Source of the DNA: Bacteroidaceae bacterium
Lineage (GTDB): Bacteria; Bacteroidota; Bacteroidia; Bacteroidales; Bacteroidaceae
Assembly (NCBI GenBank): GCA_017448965.1
Contig: JAFSKK010000063.1
Span: 62,001-126,000 of the forward strand
Reading direction: 5' to 3'
DNA: 64,000 nt
A program made the position numbers and the translations under genes. The notes beneath the pieces were generated by a model. It searched no databases. It had not been told where the DNA came from and saw only the letters and a list, made by a program, of their open reading frames with translations. Shown one piece after another: positions 27,505 through 54,533 of this stretch; the first letter of the stretch is position 1, and every line of letters begins with the position of its first letter.

Positions 27505-27641
27505 TTAGAAGTTAAAGAAGTTAGAGAAGTTATCGGTTCTTTGCGAGCAAAGCGCTTCGCGATGGCGCTCGAAGTTAGAGACGTATGTGATGCTGTTGAC
27601 AAGGTGTCGTCTTTAACTTCTCTAACTCCTTTAACTTCTTA
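27505..27641. repeat. Family A repeat, copy 1
   Basis: A 137-bp element has ends built from GAAGTTA/AAGGAGTTA units in inverted orientation and a core that contains the sub-palindrome GCGAGCAAAGCGCTTCGC. The core from AGAAGTTATCGG through AAGTTAGAGAC (about 57 bp) is repeated exactly, inverted, in copy 2. It fills the whole gap between the AEC and GNAT genes and ends seven bases from the GNAT stop. Confidence 0.8.
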
Positions 27642-28236: not shown

Positions 28237-28319
28237 AAAAACGGTATGAGACTGATTTCCACAAACGGCTTGGGGTTTGCTCCACAAGCGGCTTGCCCTC
28301 TACGCCGTAGGAGAAGTCG

Positions 28320-28397
28320 TTCATAAGTTATGAATATTTGTTCATAAGTTATGAACAATTATCCGTAAGTTATGAATAATTATCCATAAGTTATGAA
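28320..28397. repeat. Four palindromic 15-mers at exact 21-bp spacing
   Basis: Copies of TTCATAAGTTATGAA start at 28320, 28341, 28362 and 28383; the last two differ only at the left end (TCCGTAAG.., TCCATAAG..). The unit is a 7+1+7 palindrome. A 21-bp period is two helical turns, so a dimeric protein could bind side by side on one face. The array sits just upstream of the HU-like gene promoter. Confidence 0.8.
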
Positions 28398-28413
28398 CAA
28401 CTTTGGGCTTTTC

Positions 28414-29249: not shown

Positions 29250-30176
29250 ATGAATCCAACGAGAGCGATATTGACCATCACGGGTAGCGACGGCACAGGC
29301 GGTTCGGGCGTGCAGGCGGACATCCGCTTCATCCGCGAACTGGGTGGGGTGGCGGCATCTGCCATCACGTCCATCACGGTGCAGAACACGTTGGGTATTC
29401 AGGAGTTCTACGACTTGCCGGCATCGACCGTGAGGATGCAGGTGGAGGCCATCATCAACGACTTGCAGCCACAAGTGGTGAAGGTGGGACTGTTGCGCCG
29501 CATCGATGTGGTGGAGGCAGTGGCAGACGTCTTGCGCCGTTACCGTCCCCGACACATCATCTATGCGCCTGTGCTGGAATCGACACGTGGTGAACGCTTG
29601 CTTTCTTCCGAGGTGTATGAGGCCATCGAACGGTTGCTGTTGCCTTTGTGCACGGTCGTTTTGGAGGCACGTCATGAGGGACAGCACGGTAAGGCCAACC
29701 AACTCTCTTCGGCAGTGGCGGTGTTGCTCAACCGAGGAGAGCAGCCTGATGAGGCGATGCGCCACGCTCGTGAGTTGCTGGATGAGTTGCCTGCAGGCTA
29801 TGTGGAGCCGACGGGTCGCAGCGGCGAACTCTACAATCAGTTTCTCGACACTGTGGAGCGGTTCTATCATCGCTATGCCGATGTGGCTTTCTATGCCGAG
29901 CAACTGAATGTCAGCCCCCGCTATCTGGGGCAGGTGACCCGTCGCATCGCAGGCCGTTCGCCCAAAACCATCATCGACGAGCGCATCACGACGGAGATGG
30001 CCACGTTGCTCACCACGACCACCCGTTCGCTCAAGGAGATCGCCCATCAGTTGGGCTTTTCCTCGCAGGCGCACCTGTCCCGATTCTTCAAGAAACAGAA
30101 GGGTGTTTCGCCCATACAATATAGGAACAAAAAAGAAGTTAAAGGAGTTAAAGACGACACTTTGCCACCAGTATGA
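29250..30176 (+). CDS. ThiD-like domain fused to AraC DNA-binding domain, probable PLP regulator
   Basis: 308 residues. The N-terminal part (1-160) matches ThiD/PdxK-type kinases at ITGSDGTGGSGVQADI, but the region between PLCTVV and LSSAVAVLL has lost about 80 residues, and the active-site HGTGC/D motif is replaced by HGKANQ (146-151). The C-terminal part (205-292) is an AraC pair of helix-turn-helices ending GVSPIQYR. It probably senses a pyridoxine or pyrimidine-like ligand and controls pdxST 112 bp downstream. The last 16 residues are encoded by a family A repeat. Start is ATG 29250. Confidence 0.78.
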   Translation: MNPTRAILTITGSDGTGGSGVQADIRFIRELGGVAASAITSITVQNTLGIQEFYDLPASTVRMQVEAIINDLQPQVVKVGLLRRIDVVEAVADVLRRYRPRHIIYAPVLESTRGERLLSSEVYEAIERLLLPLCTVVLEARHEGQHGKANQLSSAVAVLLNRGEQPDEAMRHARELLDELPAGYVEPTGRSGELYNQFLDTVERFYHRYADVAFYAEQLNVSPRYLGQVTRRIAGRSPKTIIDERITTEMATLLTTTTRSLKEIAHQLGFSSQAHLSRFFKKQKGVSPIQYRNKKEVKGVKDDTLPPV

Positions 30177-31810: not shown

Positions 31811-34312
31811 ATGAAAAAGACTTTTTTGATGATGAGCGTTTGTGCTGTTGCTGCGATGGCGACCGCACAAACGCTGCATTATAAACGCCCTGCCGACTAC
31901 TTTGAGGAAGCCCTTGTCATCGGCAACGGCATGATGGGTGGCACCGTGTATGGTGGCACCGTGAAGGATAAGATTTCACTCAACGACATCACTCTGTGGA
32001 CAGGCGAACCCTGCAACATGAACGTTTATTCGCCCGATGCGCATAAGACCATCCCTGCCATCCGCGAGGCACTGCGCAAGGGCGACTATCGGGAGGCTGA
32101 CCGTCTGCAACGTGATGTGCAGGGACATTTCTCTCAGAATTATCAACCCCTCGGCGAACTCTCCATCGAATATCTGGACACGCTTGGTGAGGTGAGTAAC
32201 TATCGCCGTTGGCTCGACATTGGCAACGCGACAGCACACACCGCGTGGCATCGGGGTGTGTATCAGTATGCGGTGGAGTATTTTGCCACCAATCCTGATT
32301 CGGGTATGGTCATCCGCATCACGACCGACAACCCGAAGGGCATCCATGCACGGGCGTCACTCGGCAGCCAATTGCGACATGAGAAACGGGTGGGGAACGA
32401 TGGCGTGATGACGGTCGATGGCTATGTGGGTTATGCCTCGTTGCCCAGTTACTATGATGCGAAGGAGAAGTTTGCCTACGATCCCAATCGAGGCATCCAT
32501 TTCCGCACGAAGATGCAAGTGGCGGCTGCGAACGTGAGGGCTGACAGCGATGAGGCTGTGCTGATTGATGGTAGCAAGGAAGTGACGCTCTATCTGGTCA
32601 ATGCCACCTCTTTCAATGGTTACGATAAAGACCCAGTGAAGGAAGGGAAACCTTATCAGGCAATCGCGGATGCACGGTTGCAGCATCTCTCGGCTATGGA
32701 TTACAACGACTTGCTGAATCGTCACATGAACGATTATAAGAACATATACGATAGAGTAAAACTCTCTCTAAGCCCCCTCCCAACCTCCCCCAAAGGGGAG
32801 GAGTTCCGTCCGGATGGTTCATCCCCCCTTGGGGGGACAGGAGGGGGGCTCCCAACAGATGAAATATTGAAGGAGTACCTTGACGAAGGCATCTACAATC
32901 CTGAACTTGAAGCCCTCTACTTCCAGTATGGCCGCTATCTACTCATCTCCTGCTCGCGCACCCCGAATGTGCCTTCCAACCTGCAAGGCTTGTGGAACGA
33001 GTCGCTGTTGCCGCCTTGGTCGTGCAACTACACCAGCAACATCAATGTGGAGGAGAACTATTGGGCAGCGGAGACGGCAGCGCTGCCTGAGATGCACCAG
33101 TCGCTCTTCACCTTCATGAAGGAACTGCAAGGCTCTGGCGAACTGACGGCTAAGGCATATTATGGTGTGGACAAGGGTTGGTGCCTCGCTCACAACACCG
33201 ACATCTGGGCGATGACCTGTCCAGTGGGTCTCCACACGGGCGACCCCATGTGGGCGAACTGGAACATGGGCGGTGCATGGCTCTCCACCCACATCTGGGA
33301 GCACTACACCTTCTCGCTCGACAAGAACTTCCTGAAAGAATACTATCCTGTGCTGAAAGGCGCGGCGGAGTTTTGTCTTGGCTGGCTCGTCTCCACTAAG
33401 GATATGGGCGTGCCCGGAACAGAGTACCTCATCACCGCTCCCTCCACCTCTCCTGAAAACTGCTTCATCACTGATCAGGGTTATCACGGACGCACGTGCT
33501 ATGGAGGTTTTGCCGACATCGCCATGATTCGCGAGTGTTTGACCGATGCCCGTAATGCCGCAACCATCTTGGGGGTGGATAATGACTTCATTGATGAGGC
33601 CACGGTGGCATTGGTGAGTCTTCAACCCTACAAGATTGGCAAGAAAGGAAATCTGCAGGAATGGTTCTACGATTGGGAGGATGAAGATCCTCATCATCGC
33701 CACCAAAGTCATCTGTTTGGTGTTTATCCAGGACATCAAGTCAAAGCCCCCGAATTGCTTCGTGCCGCTTCCAAGACCCTTGAACTGAAAGGTGATAAGA
33801 CAACGGGTTGGAGCACGGGCTGGCGTGTGAATCTCTATGCCCGTCTGCACGATGCCAAGAACGCTTATCACATGTATCGCAAACTGCTCTCCTACGTGAG
33901 TCCTGATGGTTATCGTGGTGCAGATGCCCGTCGTGGTGGTGGTACCTATCCCAATCTGTTGGATGCCCATTCACCCTTCCAAATCGACGGCAACTTTGGC
34001 GGTTGTGCTGGTGTGATTGAGATGTTGATGCAGAGTGAGTTTAGCTTCGAACTTGCACAGCCGAAGAACCGCCTCGTGATGCAACCGCAGATTGCCATAG
34101 AACTTCTTCCTGCCCTCCCCGCCAACTGGAAGGATGGCTCCGTTTCTGGCATCCGTGCCCGTGGTGGCATCACGGTTGATATGAAATGGGAAAACAGCCG
34201 CGTCACGACCTTGACCCTTACAGCGCAGAAAGCCTGCAAGGTGACGCTCATCATGAACGGGCAGCAGAAGGTGGTGAAACTGAAAAAAGGAAAGAACAAC
34301 TTATTAAGATAA
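31811..34312 (+). CDS. GH95-family glycoside hydrolase (alpha-L-fucosidase/galactosidase)
   Basis: An 833-residue secreted enzyme with a signal peptide (residues 1-20) and the GH95 N-terminal sandwich ([29 protein letters not shown]). The catalytic barrel has [28 protein letters not shown] (seen in pieces) and [14 protein letters not shown] near the end. GH95 members remove alpha-1,2-fucose or L-galactose from host and plant glycans. About residues 321-348 (rich in P, G and S) are encoded by a family C repeat set in frame in the loop before LPTDEILK. The frame stays open. Confidence 0.88.
32771..32852 (+). repeat. Family C palindromic element inside the GH95 gene
   Basis: 82 bp running from AGCCCCCTCCC to GGAGGGGGGCTCC (outer arms) with an inner CCCCCCTTGGGGGG and a second inner CTCCCCCAAAGGGGAG. 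Related copies lie in the SufT-like gene and around the DUF559 gene. It encodes 28 extra residues. Confidence 0.85.
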
Positions 34313-37385: not shown

Positions 37386-38555
37386 TTAAAATGCGCTTGC
37401 CTTGAGATTAAGTCCGGCTCTTTCATCCAAGCCGAACATGATGTTCATATTTTGTACTGCCTGACCGACGGCACCTTTCAGAAGGTTGTCAATCATACTG
37501 GTAATCACGACTTTCCGTCCGAACACCTCCACATGCACAAGCGCCTTGTTGGTGTTCACCACCTGCTTGAGGTCAAGGGCTTTGTCTGAGTAGTGAGTGA
37601 AGGCGGTTCCCTCATAGAAGGTTTTGTATAGAGCGACGATGTCGCTCTCAACAGGACGTTGGTCGAGTGTCACCACCTCTGTGCAGAAGATGCCACGTGG
37701 GAAGTCACCGCGATAGGGGATGAAATCCACCGTGATGCCATCGGCTTCGTAACCCTCATCCAGCGTGTCCACCACATGGGGCGCACCAGCAGGCTTCAGT
37801 TCGTTGAGCGTCTGGCAAATCTCGTGCAGATGCTGATGGGTGAAGAGCTTATACACCGAGAAATTGTTGTCGCGCCATGAGAAGTGGGTGGTGGCACTTG
37901 GCTTTTGACCAGCTCCTGTAGAACCTGTGATGGCATTGACGGCAATATCCTTGGTGAGCAGTCCTGCCTTTGCCAATGGCAACAAGCCCAACTGGATGCA
38001 CGTAGCAAAACATCCAGGATTTGCCAAGTGCTGACACTTCGCAATCTCTTCCCTGTGTGTCTCAGGCAAACCATAAATAAAGTTATAGGGAAAAGTGATA
38101 AGTGAAGAATTTGCTACCGCATTGGGTGCATCTGCGGCAGCCGATTTTTCACTGTTCACTTTTACTTTATCCTTTCTAATCCGGAAGTCCTGCGCCATGT
38201 CGATAATCTTCACGTTCGCGGGGATGTCGTGCTCCTTCAAGAACGCCTCGCTCTTGCCATGTCCGAAGCAGAAGAACACTACATCAACTTGGTCAAATGG
38301 CATCTCCGACGTGAATTCCAACTCCGTCTCTCCGATGAGTCCTTCATGCACGTCATAGACCTTGTTGCCAGCGTTCGATTCCGAATTGGCAAACACGATT
38401 TCTGCCTGCGGATGGTTGATGAGCAGACGGATGAGTTCACCGCCCGTGTAACCAGCTGCACCTAATATACCAACTCGGAGTCCCCCTCTTGTCCCCCCAA
38501 GGGGGGATGAACCATTCGGGGTGTTGGTCGTTTGTGCTTTATGAATGTCTGTCAT
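37386..38555 (-). CDS. argC: N-acetyl-gamma-glutamyl-phosphate reductase with two repeat-derived inserts
   Basis: A 389-residue ArgC: Rossmann motif VGILGAAGYTGGE (28-40), catalytic C182 in ANPGCFATC, and the SGSTGAG-type motif seen as ITGSTGAGQKPS. The first 26 residues replace the usual start near MKVGI and include residues encoded by a family C repeat (12-26). Residues 128-158, between DFR and FIYGLPE, are encoded by a family B element. The ATG overlaps the stop of the DUF559 gene (ATGA), so argC is now coupled to that cargo gene. Confidence 0.92.
   Translation of the reverse strand: MTDIHKAQTTNTPNGSSPLGGTRGGLRVGILGAAGYTGGELIRLLINHPQAEIVFANSESNAGNKVYDVHEGLIGETELEFTSEMPFDQVDVVFFCFGHGKSEAFLKEHDIPANVKIIDMAQDFRIRKDKVKVNSEKSAAADAPNAVANSSLITFPYNFIYGLPETHREEIAKCQHLANPGCFATCIQLGLLPLAKAGLLTKDIAVNAITGSTGAGQKPSATTHFSWRDNNFSVYKLFTHQHLHEICQTLNELKPAGAPHVVDTLDEGYEADGITVDFIPYRGDFPRGIFCTEVVTLDQRPVESDIVALYKTFYEGTAFTHYSDKALDLKQVVNTNKALVHVEVFGRKVVITSMIDNLLKGAVGQAVQNMNIMFGLDERAGLNLKASAF
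38082..38174 (-). repeat. Family B element in frame inside argC
   Basis: The element retains TTGCTACCGCA and TGCGGCAGCCGATTTTTC arms with a short loop and the usual GTGAAAAG flank, and has no stop in the argC frame. It encodes the 31-residue insert at 128-158 of ArgC, a surface-loop position in the family. Confidence 0.82.
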
Positions 38556-38995
38556 AAATGTTCTTTAATTGTTTGTAATACTGATTCAATATTGGCAATC
38601 ACTTCTTCGTTGGTGAAGCGAATCACGTTGAATCCTTGTTCGTTGAGCCATTTTGTACGTACCTCATCATTAGCTTCTTGTTGTGGAAGTTGATGATATC
38701 CTCCATCAATCTCGATGACAAGTCGTGCAGGTAGGCATACAAAGTCTGCGATATAATTCCCGATGATATGTTGCCTCCGAAAAGGTGCCCCTGCACCGCT
38801 CCTTTTGAGAAAATCCCAAAGAATGGATTCTGCCTCCGTAGGATGTCTCCTATTGTTACTAGCAAACTCCTTCAGCAAATCATAATTAAGGATATCTGCT
38901 GTACAATAATCGTACTCCTTTTTCATTGTTCCATTTTTTTTTCTAAACAATCCGGATGGCAACCCCTCCCCCTTGGGGGAGGCTGGGAGGGGGCT
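38477..38995 (-). mobile_element. Family C element split by a DUF559 gene
   Basis: The two halves of a family C element lie on either side of the DUF559 gene. The half at 38951-38995 has GGGAGGCTGGGAGGGGGCT and CCCCCTTGGGGG; the half at 38477-38521 has CCCCCCAAGGGGGG and GGAGTCCCCCTC. Together they rebuild the order seen in the uninterrupted copies at 32771 and 50674. One end touches the argG stop codon (38996-38998); the other encodes part of ArgC. This is read as a cargo-bearing palindromic element. Confidence 0.65.
38552..38926 (-). CDS. DUF559 endonuclease-like protein, cargo of a repeat element
   Basis: The 124-residue protein has the DUF559/Vsr-like nuclease fold: HPTEAESILWDFL, FRRQHIIGNYIADFVC and LVIEIDGGYHQ with the D/E-x-D/E-x-H residues of the PD-(D/E)xK type, then VIRFTNEEV. 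Its biological role is unknown; Vsr relatives nick DNA. The start is at ATG 38926. It lies between argG and argC, an unusual place, inside a split palindromic element, and ends in the argC start. Confidence 0.8.
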   Translation of the reverse strand: MKKEYDYCTADILNYDLLKEFASNNRRHPTEAESILWDFLKRSGAGAPFRRQHIIGNYIADFVCLPARLVIEIDGGYHQLPQQEANDEVRTKWLNEQGFNVIRFTNEEVIANIESVLQTIKEHL

Positions 38996-40198
38996 TTATC
39001 TTTCTTCGTTTGGATGTGCCAAATAATAAGCACGGAGTGGGGTAGATGTTACTTTGATGAAGCCTTTGGCATCTTCTGATGACCATGCCTTGGCAGTCTC
39101 ACCATACTCGCCGAGCTTGTTCTTCACGAGGTCGTTAGGAGAATCCACACCGACTGTCTGGAAACAGAGTGGACGGAGTTCGAGGGTCACTTCTCCTGTC
39201 ACATTGCGCTGTGAAGAAGTCAACATGGCCTCGATGTCTGGCATGACAGGCTCCAGGTACTGGCTCTCGTGCAGGAACATGCCGTACCAGTTGCTCACTT
39301 GATCTTTCCAATACTGCTGCCACTTCGACAATGTGTACTTTTCCAAGAAGCGGTGTGCACCGATAATCAACATAGGAGCAGCAGCTTCGAAGCCCACACG
39401 TCCCTTGATGCCAATGATGGTGTCGCCCACGTGGCAGTCACGACCGATGCCGTAAGCGGCACCAATCTCCTCTACTGCTTGGATGGCCTTGATCTTGTCG
39501 TTATACTTGACGCCGTTCACGCTGCACAGCTCGCCCTTTTCGAAGCCCAACTTCAGGAGTTCTGGACCTTCCTTCGTGGGGTGCTTCAGGTAAGCAGACT
39601 CAGGCAGACCCTGTGTGGAGTCGAGAATCTCACCACCGCAGATAGAGGTGCCCCAGATTCCCACGTTGTAAGAGTACTTCAGCTTCGCGAAATCAGCGGC
39701 AAAGCCATTCTTGTTCAGGTAATCAATCTCCTCCTGACGGCTCAGGTTACCATCGCGGGTCAGCGTGATGATTTCCACACCCGGAGCCATCACGAGGAAG
39801 GTCATGTCGAAACGAATCTGGTCGTTACCTGCACCAGTTGAGCCGTGTGCAATGGCGCTGGCACCAATCTCCTTGGCATAACGTGCAATTGCCAAAGCTT
39901 GGAAGATGCGCTCGGAAGACACAGAGATGGGGTAGCAGTTGTTTCTCAACACATTGCCAAACACCATGTATTTGAGTGATTTAGCGTAGTATTCCTGCGT
40001 CACGTCGAGTGTCACATATTTTGTGGCACCCAACTTGTAGGCGTTCTCCTCGTTCGTCTTGAGCTGTTCTGCCGAGAAACCACCTGTGTTGGCACATGCA
40101 GCATACACTTCATAACCTTTCTCTTTTGCCAGATACATTACCGTGTAAGAGGTATCCAGACCGCCGCTGAAGGCAACGACAACCTTTTTCTTTTCCAT
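38996..40198 (-). CDS. argG: Argininosuccinate synthase
   Basis: A 400-residue enzyme with the PP-loop SGGLDTS (11-17), followed by YPISVSSERIFQALA, AHGSTGAGNDQIRFD and GRVGFEAAAPMLIIGAH, all typical. It joins citrulline and aspartate using ATP. Its stop codon abuts the family C element, and a family B element with its cargo gene lies upstream. Confidence 0.95.
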   Translation of the reverse strand: MEKKKVVVAFSGGLDTSYTVMYLAKEKGYEVYAACANTGGFSAEQLKTNEENAYKLGATKYVTLDVTQEYYAKSLKYMVFGNVLRNNCYPISVSSERIFQALAIARYAKEIGASAIAHGSTGAGNDQIRFDMTFLVMAPGVEIITLTRDGNLSRQEEIDYLNKNGFAADFAKLKYSYNVGIWGTSICGGEILDSTQGLPESAYLKHPTKEGPELLKLGFEKGELCSVNGVKYNDKIKAIQAVEEIGAAYGIGRDCHVGDTIIGIKGRVGFEAAAPMLIIGAHRFLEKYTLSKWQQYWKDQVSNWYGMFLHESQYLEPVMPDIEAMLTSSQRNVTGEVTLELRPLCFQTVGVDSPNDLVKNKLGEYGETAKAWSSEDAKGFIKVTSTPLRAYYLAHPNEER

Positions 40199-40201
40199 AA
40201 T

Positions 40202-40680
40202 TGATTAAGTTAAAAGTGAAAAATGAAAAGTGAAAAATTTGCTACCGCTTTCCATCTTCACATCTTTTATATATTTTGTTTTGTTGTTTTTATTGATGAT
40301 ATTAAGAGCACGAGTAATTCTCGGCAGTCTTTTTCTAAACTTGTATGCTCATCTATCTGTAAATAATCTGTATCTTTCAGAAGATTTAGCCAATAAAGAG
40401 TTTCATTACATTCTTTCATGGCGATAGATAGTTTGCTGATGAAGTCTTTCGGACTTTGTGCATAAGTGGATTCGCTTACCAATGCTCCAATCGCTGTGCC
40501 TGAGCGGAAAACTTGATTGAGCATACCGTATTCTTTAGGGCTACATACAATATCTCTTACCATCTTAACGATTCTGATAGCAAAGCAATAACTCTTTACC
40601 GTTAATGGCGATTGATTGTTTTGAAGATAACTCATACAGTAGCGGTAGCAAATTTTTCACTTTTCACTTTTCCTTTTACC
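40202..40680 (-). mobile_element. Family B element carrying a four-helix-bundle gene
   Basis: Exact 20-bp inverted arms, GTGAAAAATTTGCTACCGCT (40230-40249) and AGCGGTAGCAAATTTTTCAC (40641-40660), enclose the S23/IVP-like gene. Outside the arms are the GTGAAAAG runs found in every family B copy. Other copies have a loop of about 30 bp; here it is about 390 bp and codes for protein. This suggests a cargo-bearing version of the repeat. Confidence 0.75.
40267..40635 (-). CDS. Four-helix-bundle protein (S23/23S rRNA IVP family)
   Basis: The 122-residue, all-helical protein is of the IVP/Avd-type family: SYCFAIRIVKMVRDI, the RSGTAIGALVSES turn typical of the family, and KLSIAMKECNETLYWLNLL. Relatives are encoded in intervening sequences of 23S rRNA or help reverse transcriptases in diversity-generating retroelements, where they bind nucleic acid. 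The start codon is five bases inside the right arm of the surrounding family B element. No reverse transcriptase is seen nearby. Confidence 0.82.
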   Translation of the reverse strand: MSYLQNNQSPLTVKSYCFAIRIVKMVRDIVCSPKEYGMLNQVFRSGTAIGALVSESTYAQSPKDFISKLSIAMKECNETLYWLNLLKDTDYLQIDEHTSLEKDCRELLVLLISSIKTTKQNI

Positions 40681-40686
40681 CTTATA

Positions 40687-41322
40687 TCACATCAACCCTC
40701 TTGTCACCATCTCCTTCATGATTTCTTGGAATATCTCGATGGGTGTTGGTTCGCCCTTGTGCTGTGCAGGGTCGTACAGCATGCCTGTGCAGATGCAGAA
40801 CTTACGGTTCTTCATCTCCAGGATGGGGTGATTGATGCATCCACGACATCCGCGCCAGAAGGCGTCATCGTCTGTCAGCTGGTTGAAGCTCACAGGCACG
40901 TAACCTAATGCTGTGTTCATTTTCATGACTGCATCACCGCTTGTGAGCGAGAATATCTTGGCGTGAGGCCAACGCACACGTGCCAACGTGAAGGTATGGT
41001 CCTTGATGCGCTTGGCGATGTTGCGTCCCTGATAGTCAGGATGCACAATCAGACCAGAGGTCGTTACATACGACTTGTTTCCCCATGTCTCAATGTAGCT
41101 GAAACCCACGAACGTGTCGCCCAACTCTGTCTGCTTGCTGGGGTCAAGTGCCAACACCGCCTTGCCCTCCTTCATCTTCGTCGCCACATACTCATGGGTG
41201 CGCTCAGCAATGCCCGTTCCACGCTTCTTTGCAGCTTCACGTATGGTGTCGAGAATCAAGTCCACGTACTTCTCGTGGCTTGCATCCGCTACAATCACCT
41301 TAATTCCGTCTTCGTATATCAT
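40687..41322 (-). CDS. GNAT acyltransferase of the arginine operon
   Basis: A 211-residue GNAT with LIVHPDYQGRNIAKRIKDH as the acyl-CoA loop and a cysteine-containing C-terminal part (RGCRGCINHP, CICTGMLYDP). Between argR and argG, it could be the missing first enzyme that N-acetylates or N-succinylates glutamate in place of ArgA/ArgJ. This is inference from the operon. A family B element begins about five bases after its stop. Confidence 0.72.
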   Translation of the reverse strand: MIYEDGIKVIVADASHEKYVDLILDTIREAAKKRGTGIAERTHEYVATKMKEGKAVLALDPSKQTELGDTFVGFSYIETWGNKSYVTTSGLIVHPDYQGRNIAKRIKDHTFTLARVRWPHAKIFSLTSGDAVMKMNTALGYVPVSFNQLTDDDAFWRGCRGCINHPILEMKNRKFCICTGMLYDPAQHKGEPTPIEIFQEIMKEMVTRGLM

Positions 41323-41340: not shown

Positions 41341-41443
41341 GTGAAAAAGTAAAAGTGAAAAGTGAACAATTTGCTTCCGCATGTATGTGCTACCAATGGA
41401 AGAGCGATTGCGGTAGCAAATTTTTCATTTTTCATTTTTCACT
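41341..41443. repeat. Family B element between argR and the GNAT gene
   Basis: The arms are AATTTGCTTCCGCA and TGCGGTAGCAAATTTTTCA, with GTGAAAAG runs outside. It begins directly at the argR stop codon (TAAAGTGAAAAATG on the minus strand) and fills the gap. Confidence 0.8.
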
Positions 41444-41929
41444 TTACACATGGCTTCCCGGATAAACCGGTACAATTGTTCTCAAGTTTGCTTCTAAAGT
41501 ATTTTTGTTGAATCCCTCTTCCAGTGCCAGAAAGATGGTGTCATCTCCGGCGATGGTGCCGATCACCTCTGGAATGTGGGCATTGTCAATGTCGCTTGCC
41601 AATCCGCTGGCATAACCGGGTCGGCACTTGATGACTGCCAGTTGTCCCGATATGCGGATGGACATAAAACCGTTGCGGATGGCTGTTCCCTCCTGCCGAT
41701 GCTCCCTCACCCTGCGGTAATAGGGATTTTCTGGCAGCATGTAGATGGAACGTCCCTTGGGCGAGAACCCCTTCACCACCTTCAGCAGTTTCAGGTCGCG
41801 CGACAAAGTGGCCTGCGTCATGTTCACGCCCTCCTTCGAGAGCGCCTGTGCCAACTCATCCTGACGCCCTATCTCCTGTGTCTGGATGATGGCCTTGATG
41901 ATGTCTAGTCTCGATTGTCTTGCAGTCAT
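41444..41929 (-). CDS. argR: Arginine repressor
   Basis: A 161-residue ArgR: N-terminal winged helix (IKAIIQTQEIGRQDELAQAL then VNMTQATLSRDLKLL, whose SRD is the DNA-reading part) and the C-terminal hexamerisation and arginine-binding part (GYASGLASDIDN, IPEVIGTIAGDDTIFLAL). It should repress the operon it heads when arginine is plentiful. A candidate operator lies upstream of its promoter. Confidence 0.93.
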   Translation of the reverse strand: MTARQSRLDIIKAIIQTQEIGRQDELAQALSKEGVNMTQATLSRDLKLLKVVKGFSPKGRSIYMLPENPYYRRVREHRQEGTAIRNGFMSIRISGQLAVIKCRPGYASGLASDIDNAHIPEVIGTIAGDDTIFLALEEGFNKNTLEANLRTIVPVYPGSHV

Positions 41930-41942
41930 CGCTTATCCGATA

Positions 41943-42055
41943 TTATAAGTGAAAAAGTAAAAGTGAAAAGTGAAAGATTGGCTACCGCAAACGTGTGCTA
42001 CCAGACTGTGAACAAACAAATGCGGTAGCAAATTTTTCACTTTTCATTTTTCACG
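41943..42055. repeat. Family B element in the argR 5' leader
   Basis: The arms are GATTGGCTACCGCA and TGCGGTAGCAAATTTTTCAC, with the usual GTGAAAAG outer repeats and a loop of about 33 bp. It lies between the inferred start of transcription and the argR ATG, so it would form a hairpin in the mRNA leader. Confidence 0.8.
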
Positions 42056-42093
42056 TTTCCCCTCTTATTGCATATTTATTCACAAATCGGCTG

Positions 42094-50335: not shown

Positions 50336-50475
50336 AGAAGTTAAAGGAGTTAGAGAAGTTAAAGGAGTTAAAGACGATACTTGTCAACAGCATGTCAATT
50401 GTTCTACATCAGCATAACATTTGTCTTTAACTTCTAAACGAAGCGATAACTTCTATAACTTCTTTAACTCCTTTT
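50336..50475. repeat. Family A repeat, copy 3
   Basis: GAAGTTAAAGGAGTTA-type arms in inverted orientation with a different, less conserved core than copies 1 and 2. One end touches the stop codon of the SufT-like gene (50476-50478). Confidence 0.78.
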
Positions 50476-50868
50476 TTACATAAATCCTAAGTCAAGTTTG
50501 GCTTCTTCACTCATCATGTCCTTGTTCCATTCAGGTTCGAAGACCACATTCACGTTCACCGTCTTGACGGCAGGGATGCCTTCCAGTTTCTGCTGAATGT
50601 CTTCGAGAATGAAGTCGGCAGCAGGGCAGTTGGGGGCAGTGAAGGTCATGTCGATGTCAAGGTCGAAGACCTCGGAGCCCCCCTCGTTCCCCCCAAGGGG
50701 GGATGAGTTGCCGTCCGGATGGGGCTCCTCCCCCAAGGGGGTGGTTGGGTGGGGGCTCACGTCAATCTTGTATATCATGCCGAGGTCCCACACGTTGACG
50801 GGAATCTCGGGGTCGAACACCGTCTTGAGGTATTCGACGGTCTTTTCTTCTACTTCGTATTTCGTCAT
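50476..50868 (-). CDS. SufT/MIP18-like Fe-S assembly factor with repeat-derived insert
   Basis: A 130-residue DUF59 protein: VFDPEIPVNVWDLGMIYKIDV then DIDMTFTAPNCPAADF (conserved cysteine 81) and VNVVFEPEW. Such proteins help place iron-sulfur clusters. Residues 38-65 (PHPTTPLGEEP, DGNSSPLGGNEGG) are absent from usual relatives and are encoded by a family C element in the loop between two strands. The start is at 50868. Confidence 0.85.
   Translation of the reverse strand: MTKYEVEEKTVEYLKTVFDPEIPVNVWDLGMIYKIDVSPHPTTPLGEEPHPDGNSSPLGGNEGGSEVFDLDIDMTFTAPNCPAADFILEDIQQKLEGIPAVKTVNVNVVFEPEWNKDMMSEEAKLDLGFM
50674..50757 (-). repeat. Family C element in frame inside the SufT-like gene
   Basis: An 84-bp element with outer arms AGCCCCCACCC and GAGGGGGGCTCC and inner palindromes CCCCCTTGGGGG and CCCCCCTTGGGGGG. 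84 is a multiple of three, so the frame is intact. Confidence 0.85.
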
Positions 50869-50877
50869 CTTTCTCAA

Positions 50878-53636: not shown

Positions 53637-54416
53637 ATGAAACTTACTGTGATTGGCGCTGGCAATATGGGCGGCGCGCTCATCAAAGGGTGGGCAAAAA
53701 GTGGAAAGATTAGCAACATCACCATTGCTGACAAGAACGAGCCGCTGCTGGCTCAGTTCAAGAAAGAATATCCATCACTCCACACCACGACCGACAACGT
53801 CGAGGCGGTCAAAGGTGCCGACATCGTGGTGCTTGTGGTGAAACCTTGGCTGATGAAATTGGTGTTGGCAGAGGTGAAGCATGTGCTCGACCTTGAGAAG
53901 CAGATCATCATCTCCGATGCCGCCAACTTCACTACCGGCATGCTGGCAGAGGAGTTGGGCGAGGAAGGTCAGTTCTTCTATGTCATCCCCAACATCGCCG
54001 CAGAGTTTGGTGCCAGCATGAGTTTCATTGCGAAGGCACCCACGGCCTCCGATGAGAGCCTCAAGGCGGTGGAAAAACTCTATGCCATCGATGGCGACAC
54101 GCTTGTGGTGGGCGAGAACCTTGTGGGGCCAGGTATGATGATGGCATCGTGTGGCATTGCTTACGTGATGCGCTACATCCGTGCCCAGATGGAAGGCGGC
54201 TGCGAGATGGGTTTCTATCCTCAACAAGCCAAGCAGATTGCTCTCCAAACGATGCAGGGTGCTGTTTCCCTCCTCAAAGCTACAGGTTGGCATCCTGAAG
54301 AGGCTATCGACAAAGTGACCACTCCTGGTGGTGTGACCATCAAGGGTCTCAACGAACTCGACCACGCAGGCTTCAATTCGGCTGTCATCCGTTCGCTCAA
54401 GGCAGGATTGAAATAA
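53637..54416 (+). CDS. proC: Pyrroline-5-carboxylate reductase
   Basis: A 259-residue enzyme with VIGAGNMGGALIKG at the start and the C-terminal block ATGWHPEEAIDKVTTPGGVT...LNELDHAGF. It reduces pyrroline-5-carboxylate to proline. The ATG at 53637 follows the promoter at 53564-53595, ruling out the long upstream open frame. A family B element begins directly after its stop. Confidence 0.93.
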   Translation: MKLTVIGAGNMGGALIKGWAKSGKISNITIADKNEPLLAQFKKEYPSLHTTTDNVEAVKGADIVVLVVKPWLMKLVLAEVKHVLDLEKQIIISDAANFTTGMLAEELGEEGQFFYVIPNIAAEFGASMSFIAKAPTASDESLKAVEKLYAIDGDTLVVGENLVGPGMMMASCGIAYVMRYIRAQMEGGCEMGFYPQQAKQIALQTMQGAVSLLKATGWHPEEAIDKVTTPGGVTIKGLNELDHAGFNSAVIRSLKAGLK

Positions 54417-54533
54417 GGTAAAATGTAAAAGTGAAAAGTGAAAAATTTGCTATTGCATGTGTTTGTCCAACAGGTGGCTTGCAAGTGCGGTAGCAAATTT
54501 TTCACTTTTCACTTTTACTTTTTCACTTCTTTT
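54417..54533. repeat. Family B element after proC
   Basis: Arms GTGAAAAATTTGCTATTGCA and TGCGGTAGCAAATTTTTCAC around a loop of about 30 bp that is nearly the reverse complement of the loop at 37275-37385. It begins at the base after the proC stop. Confidence 0.82.

Follow-up and report, generated by a model that had tools for sequence, protein, structure and literature searches.

A DUF559 nuclease gene nested in a protein-coding palindromic element between argG and argC: a probable splicing-free homing-type selfish element

The window analyzed here is the whole 64,000-nucleotide stretch of a Bacteroidaceae draft genome, and its minus strand carries argG (38996–40198) and argC (37386–38555), both assigned by Pfam and NCBIfam models. 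Inserted between them is an element of 517 bp (38479–38995, minus strand), delimited by comparison with the empty junctions of relatives, and the order on the minus strand is argG, a left half of the palindromic family C, a DUF559 gene, a right C half and argC. The left half (38951–38995, minus strand; AGCCCCCTCCCAGCCTCCCCCAAGGGGGAGGGGTTGCCATCCGGA) consists of an outer arm (AGCCCCCTCCC), an inner hairpin (CCCCCTTGGGGG) and an inner edge, and the right half (38479–38519, minus strand; CCGAATGGTTCATCCCCCCTTGGGGGGACAAGAGGGGGACT) consists of an inner segment, a hairpin (CCCCCCTTGGGGGG) and an outer arm. The gene between them (38552–38926, minus strand) encodes a nuclease of 124 amino acids that matches the DUF559 family (PF04480) with a Pfam E-value of 1e-32, and its stop codon overlaps the argC start in the ATGA at 38552–38555. 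A first-pass annotation of this DNA had one end of the insert touching the argG stop and the other translated as the start of ArgC; both ends lie as described, the left half abutting the stop codon of argG directly upstream and the right half being translated among the extra residues at the N terminus of ArgC. The argC gene takes its start codon and its first 26 codons from the element.

Because the two halves of C can be distinguished (CCTCCCCC..GGGGGAGG in one versus CCCCCCTTGGGGGG in the other), the flanks of the DUF559 gene can be recognized as one left and one right half and not as two whole elements. Two separate full elements around the gene are ruled out, as one flank is left-type and the other right-type, and a remnant copy in another genome, in which the gene is mostly deleted, keeps both ends. 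Each half of the DUF559 copy retains a CCGG-like inner edge (CATCCGGA and CCGAATGG), and these edges look as if the gene had been placed at the center of a C element. The window holds two solo C elements, one (32771–32850, plus strand) within the reading frame of a glycosyl hydrolase family 95 (GH95) gene (31811–34312) and one (50676–50757, minus strand) in frame inside an FeS_assembly_P gene (50476–50877); both show the two halves joined at a CCGG center, CCGTCCGGATGG, which reads CATCCGGATG in some other copies of the genus. By eye, the right half at 38479–38519 differs from that of the solo at 32771 in 3 of 41 positions. At the level of sequence, the nesting of a DUF559 gene in a C element, as the first-pass annotation proposed, is upheld by the one half of each kind, by four further genomes that have a DUF559 gene flanked by C halves at argG|argC, by the mostly deleted remnant in a fifth and by the empty argG|argC junction of relatives.

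The solo copies sit in coding sequence more often than expected. The fetched genus loci hold 37 unique solo C elements, which are not mutually independent, and a long ORF, with at least 40 codons on both sides of the solo in the best of six frames, runs through 31 of them. Like-for-like random insertions were read through in 417 of 1198 or 508 of 1214 cases (35–42%), and those placed inside ORFs in 41–48%, so the enrichment is about twofold and not sixfold; a random insertion keeps a given host frame in 53 of 407 cases. Family models confirmed the GH95 enzyme, the FeS_assembly_P protein, IleRS and TrpA as hosts. The GH95 site was readable in 24 of 30 fetched loci, of which 19 lack the element and the others have it, two in one orientation and three in the opposite one. 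In the explanation that we consider best, solo C elements would be gene-less versions of the same coding palindrome. By eye, the DUF559 element of G007 also has, within its left half, a solo of about 81 bp that G030 lacks (L005 versus L006), and in L004 a tandem array occupies the position of this insertion. With the threshold used, a scan of the window for palindromes picked up other families but not the C solos.

The DUF559 gene is the sole long minus-strand ORF between the element ends, and no transposase was found in this gene-bearing form; the gene matches PF04480 and MTES_1575 only, and a RAYT (Y1) transposase was not found. For intron RNA, there was no Rfam match at gathering scores in window positions 30000–52000, nor did any phage DNA match the window element. 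Profile comparison related the DUF559 protein to 3hrl (endonuclease-like, 4.3e-34) and to 3r3p (mobile intron protein, 2.5e-7), which we take to be I-Bth0305I; the latter alignment spans only 72 positions, with E72 conserved and D61, D74 and H78 not so in the deposited chain. A DUF559 gene is assigned to the EDxHD homing endonuclease family in the available text of PMC9403480. The nuclease is under purifying selection, with dN/dS values of 0.07–0.12 among the argG|argC copies compared and of 0.05–0.12 in 11 of 14 same-site pairs, three others being not computable and three pairs having a dS above 2 that makes their values rough. Some copies are decaying, since that of G030 has an internal TGA.

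Occupancy of the argG|argC junction is patchy. We fetched 30 of 41 argG places in 40 genomes, and in 17 of them argC follows directly or within 55 nt, in many relatives immediately after the argG stop; five contain the DUF559 element, one the remnant and two another stretch, and five lack an argC motif in the fetched sequence. The nuclease gene has spread horizontally faster than its host gene. The DUF559 dS was strongly below the argG dS in 6 of 10 pairs of filled genomes, at 0.041 versus 0.904 for G031–G030, 0.070 versus 0.692 for G031–G007, 0.027 versus 0.260 for G007–G030, and 0.29–0.31 versus 0.86–0.96 for G000 with G031, G007 and G030 (0.310 versus 0.962 for G000–G031), and just modestly below it in the four pairs with G026 (0.41–0.50 versus 0.61–0.82). 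Element identity reached 0.987 where argG windows were 0.85–0.90 identical.

The filled genomes G031 and G026 have empty neighbors in the argG tree, G034 and G029, respectively. Between G026 and G029 the argG windows are 0.95–0.99 identical, with 0.91 in the last 150 nt, and the identity of argC is 0.76 in its first 150 nt and then 0.92, 0.97, 0.95 and 0.88. Of 41 informative sites in argC positions 0–180, G026 shares 38 with the filled L195 and three with its empty sister, and over positions 180–360 L195 matched at 2 of 18; judging from the 38 of 41 sites, the element of this genome moved together with about 170 bp of the adjacent argC. Along argC, G031 agreed with the filled L189 at 34 of 38 informative sites, then at 13 of 19 and then at 11 of 42. 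Among the four filled genomes besides that of the window, argC positions 0–180 are 0.89–0.96 identical, versus at most 0.78 to any empty genome; the window's own copy lies outside this shared tract, and its argC start is closest to that of the remnant genome. The co-conversion tract is short and one-sided, clear on the argC side only, with no clean tract in the adjoining part of argG. Short shared tracts could also come from recombination after DNA uptake. The likeness to homing elements noticed in the first-pass annotation has thus gained substance from the patchy occupancy, from the DUF559 dS far below the argG dS in most pairs and from the co-converted argC flank.

Palindromic ends around DUF559 genes are not confined to this junction. 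The window genome has three DUF559 matches, all bracketed by palindromic halves of different families, and 23 of 45 genomes in the genus have a match, giving 41 matches of which 31 were fetched as loci; 30 of these were scored, L025 being left out as a weak match within a long ORF. Inverted ends with a score of 24 or more within 150 bp were found at 30 of 30 of these loci, but at only 2 of 450 pseudo-genes placed in them. Scores for the argG|argC copies are just 24–26 because their two ends are unlike. In wider samples, from which loci without 150-bp flanks and one duplicate were left out, the score was reached by 39 of 66 Bacteroidota loci versus 7 of 990 background placements (17 of 27 scored from 30 fetched automatically, and 22 of 39 scored from 40 hand-picked with short ORFs preferred) and by 45 of 75 loci on named contigs from many phyla versus 8 of 1125, which leaves 27 of 66 and 30 of 75 below it. 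Among the named contigs, short-ORF loci reached it in 25 of 46 cases and long-ORF loci in 20 of 29. GC-rich hairpins of at least 7 bp stood on both sides in 20 of 30 genus, 29 of 66 Bacteroidota and 23 of 75 named loci (backgrounds of 3 of 240, 0 of 528 and 1 of 600, respectively) and on one side only in 4, 26 and 27. A null of mispaired flanks is stricter because the ends share motifs across loci, and under it only 30 of 72 usable named loci exceeded the 95% level and 13 the 99% level. The background controls rule out chance inverted repeats around DUF559.

Eight finished plasmid records of named isolates, hand-picked from 30 listed of 44 matching, gave strong inverted ends in four (scores of 51, 97, 66 and 52), including one from Deinococcus proteolyticus with a 56-base inverted pair and one from Sphingomonas with a sufB-DUF559-sufC arrangement; in two others the gene is, by eye, flanked by palindromes left and right (scores of 20 and 24), and two are one-sided. 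DUF559 as phage or plasmid cargo is unlikely, with matches to one query in 3 of 50,697 phage and 44 of 72,556 plasmid records.

DUF559 also occurs in the reading frame of enzymes. Among 80 named loci, 31 have the domain in an ORF longer than 230 amino acids, a few of which may be chance open frames, and this share is biased upward because three of the five members of the query alignment already sat in long ORFs; several Bacteroidota have DUF559 in long ORFs too. Pfam placed the domain within LeuRS (two), MetH (two), HrpA, ValRS, HsdR (two) and HsdM, and at the N terminus of a HisF-type protein, in ten hand-chosen proteins; the names of hosts outside the model-checked proteins were read by eye from translations. 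One HsdR host comes from a Methanophagales archaeon, and its locus scores 23, just below the threshold. By eye, the domain is flanked in host enzymes by palindrome-coded linkers such as PSPSGRG and LPLGEGRGEG, and a splicing (Hint) or intein domain gave no Pfam match at 1e-5 in the ten selected proteins. Two linker sites of HsdR, read by eye, are occupied variably: L102, L108 and L123 have no insert at the first, where L039 and L144 have a solo palindrome and L127 and L177 have DUF559, and the second carries DUF559 in L102, L108, L123, L039 and L144 and nothing in L127 and L177.

Within the genus, 29 loci fall at about 14 sites, and elements at different sites are all less than 67% identical, so that there is no sign of recent moves to another site. 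The comparison of DUF559 with host divergence is mixed at sites other than argG|argC. At tsaC, two DUF559 groups are 56–59% identical where the host genes are 70–81% identical; the ends of the two groups are unrelated (scores of 13–20), and the two ends of one element match each other at 63–85 in L010, L023 and L024 and at 25 in L008, a pattern consistent with different elements having captured one site. At leuA|leuC, DUF559 is 63–68% identical versus 79–90% for the hosts, with left ends at 21–29 and right ends at 36–56, and the copies may have diverged in place, because the right ends are partly similar and DUF559 outpaces the hosts. In the pair L003 and L014, DUF559 is 0.997 identical and the host genes 0.906 and 0.920. 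The right ends of L014, L017 and L022 resemble N-terminal extensions of the leuC, mnmA and carB products, as in argC.

We consider it probable, from these sequence comparisons, that the element at argG|argC is a splicing-free homing-type selfish element with palindromic coding ends, of which DUF559 would be the predicted cutter. The DUF559 protein, a Vsr/EDxHD-like nuclease, would be expected to cleave the argG|argC junction where it is uninterrupted, in cells that lack the element, and we infer that it is this enzyme that cuts the empty allele. Repair templated by a horizontally transferred copy would insert the element and carry adjoining argC sequence along with it. The ends of the element would be the palindromic halves, which pair as inverted repeats and appear by eye to translate, usually in one frame, into a Pro/Gly/Ser-rich linker. 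Because the halves code for a linker, the element could occupy the beginning of a gene, which would receive its ATG and extra N-terminal residues from it, or, in other lineages, stand in the reading frame of an essential protein with no splicing of RNA or protein. The ends would act both as recognition or repair structures and as tolerated linkers.

The strongest competitor, which we hold to be unlikely, is an arrangement like that of REPINs and RAYT, in which DUF559 mobilizes the palindromes, also acting in trans on the gene-less solos, and the homing-like spread is a by-product. It would account for the ends of the argG|argC element being halves of C solos, for the solo inserted inside the left half in G007 and lacking in G030 (by eye), and for a weak correlation between protein identity and end similarity across different sites (rho of 0.20, 3 of 500 permutations). 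C solos are found in six of six genomes with a C-type element, one of them the remnant, versus 12 of 39 others (p of 0.0023, kinship ignored), but six genomes (G021, G025, G039, G041, G042 and G043) have C-type solos and no DUF559 hit, and the association of C solos with any DUF559 is not significant (12 of 18 versus 11 of 27, p of 0.13, kinship again ignored). Quite improbable is a passenger role, in which the palindromes move by other means and a captured DUF559 serves the host in mismatch repair or defense and spreads by ordinary recombination. A Vsr-like repair role proposed for a Caulobacter DUF559 protein in the available text of PMC12907096 speaks for such a role, as do the S23 genes nested likewise in another repeat family, but it would sit poorly with inverted ends in about 60% of loci across phyla versus less than 1% of background, with several different nucleases at the same site, with the co-conversion tract beside the insert and with the in-frame placement inside unrelated enzymes. 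That chance or misassembly of repeat-rich drafts produced the pattern is scarcely credible, given the background controls and the four strong cases among the eight finished plasmid records, even though the window genome (74 contigs, 85.6% complete) and the relatives used are drafts.

Beyond the preferred homing-type reading of argG|argC, we put forward tentatively, and with clearly less confidence, that DUF559 elements represent a third lifestyle of homing endonucleases in essential genes, next to introns and inteins, in which nothing would be spliced and the linker encoded by the palindromic ends would be tolerated, the nuclease being carried in frame by tRNA synthetases, MetH or restriction subunits of bacteria and archaea; the enzyme would cut the palindrome center (CCGG in the C family) and might mobilize solo coding palindromes such as RPE-like repeats. 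To our knowledge, how in-frame palindromic repeats move is unsettled, and DUF559 would be a candidate enzyme for their insertion in genes. If the homing-type reading is right, many apparent DUF559 fusion proteins would be hosts of a selfish element and not functional fusions, a widespread domain of unknown function would gain a concrete and testable role, and the presence of DUF559 genes within operons and essential enzymes across phyla would be explained.

Like free-standing homing endonucleases, the DUF559 element brings a small nuclease gene to a constant position between conserved genes, is patchily distributed, outpaces its host and co-converts its flank, and DUF559 has detectable sequence similarity to 3r3p; it differs in having palindromic protein-coding ends that are also found as solo repeats, and in lying outside any intron or intein, with the few phage matches to one query given above. 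With inteins and group I introns that carry homing endonucleases it shares a nuclease gene inside essential genes such as LeuRS, but here the DUF559 domain and its linkers stand in the host reading frame with no sign of splicing. REPINs consist of paired inverted hairpins, with solo copies and one gene-bearing form. The DUF559 elements share these traits, but carry a PF04480 nuclease and not a Y1 transposase, and their ends begin, by eye, with AGCCCC, AGACCC or CCCTCACCC and not with a GTAG tag. Rickettsia palindromic elements (RPE) are likewise short palindromes in frame in protein-coding genes, and the available text of PMC3733652 names no nuclease gene for them, whereas the C family has a gene-bearing form. 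The Caulobacter protein VsrA shares the DUF559 domain, and a DNA-damage response depends on VsrA when YGCCGGCR methylation is lacking, as stated in the available text of PMC12907096, in which the protein is studied as a predicted mismatch-repair enzyme; the terms "palindrom" and "inverted repeat" are absent from the searched text of that paper. YGCCGGCR holds CCGG, as does the C center, and this common core is suggestive only. Free-standing homing genes and RPE-like palindromes are each known already. In the literature searched (CC-licensed PMC papers) DUF559 was not found linked with palindromes, and as far as that literature goes, their combination and the splicing-free residence in essential enzymes appear to be new.

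On the other side of argG, an S23/23S_rRNA_IVP gene (40267–40635) lies between the halves of a GTGAAAA-type repeat (40204–40690, minus strand). We fetched 30 S23/23S_rRNA_IVP loci of the genus, four of which were left out as too short, and inverted tandem arrays of 7-mers bracket 26 of 26 usable loci versus 7 of 390 background placements, in agreement with the earlier suggestion of two families of cargo-bearing elements. These arrays resemble the intergenic TAACTGA 7-mer direct repeats of Beggiatoaceae reported in PMC4679880. A palindromic element of the GTGAAAA/GCTACCGC type also lies, by eye, in frame inside argC at 38080–38171. Long imperfect AT-rich palindromes occur in the window at 27507–27639, 28314–28403, 41346–41445, 41953–42058, 50343–50474 and 54411–54532, and several of these six are of the GTGAAAA and GTTAAAGAA types.
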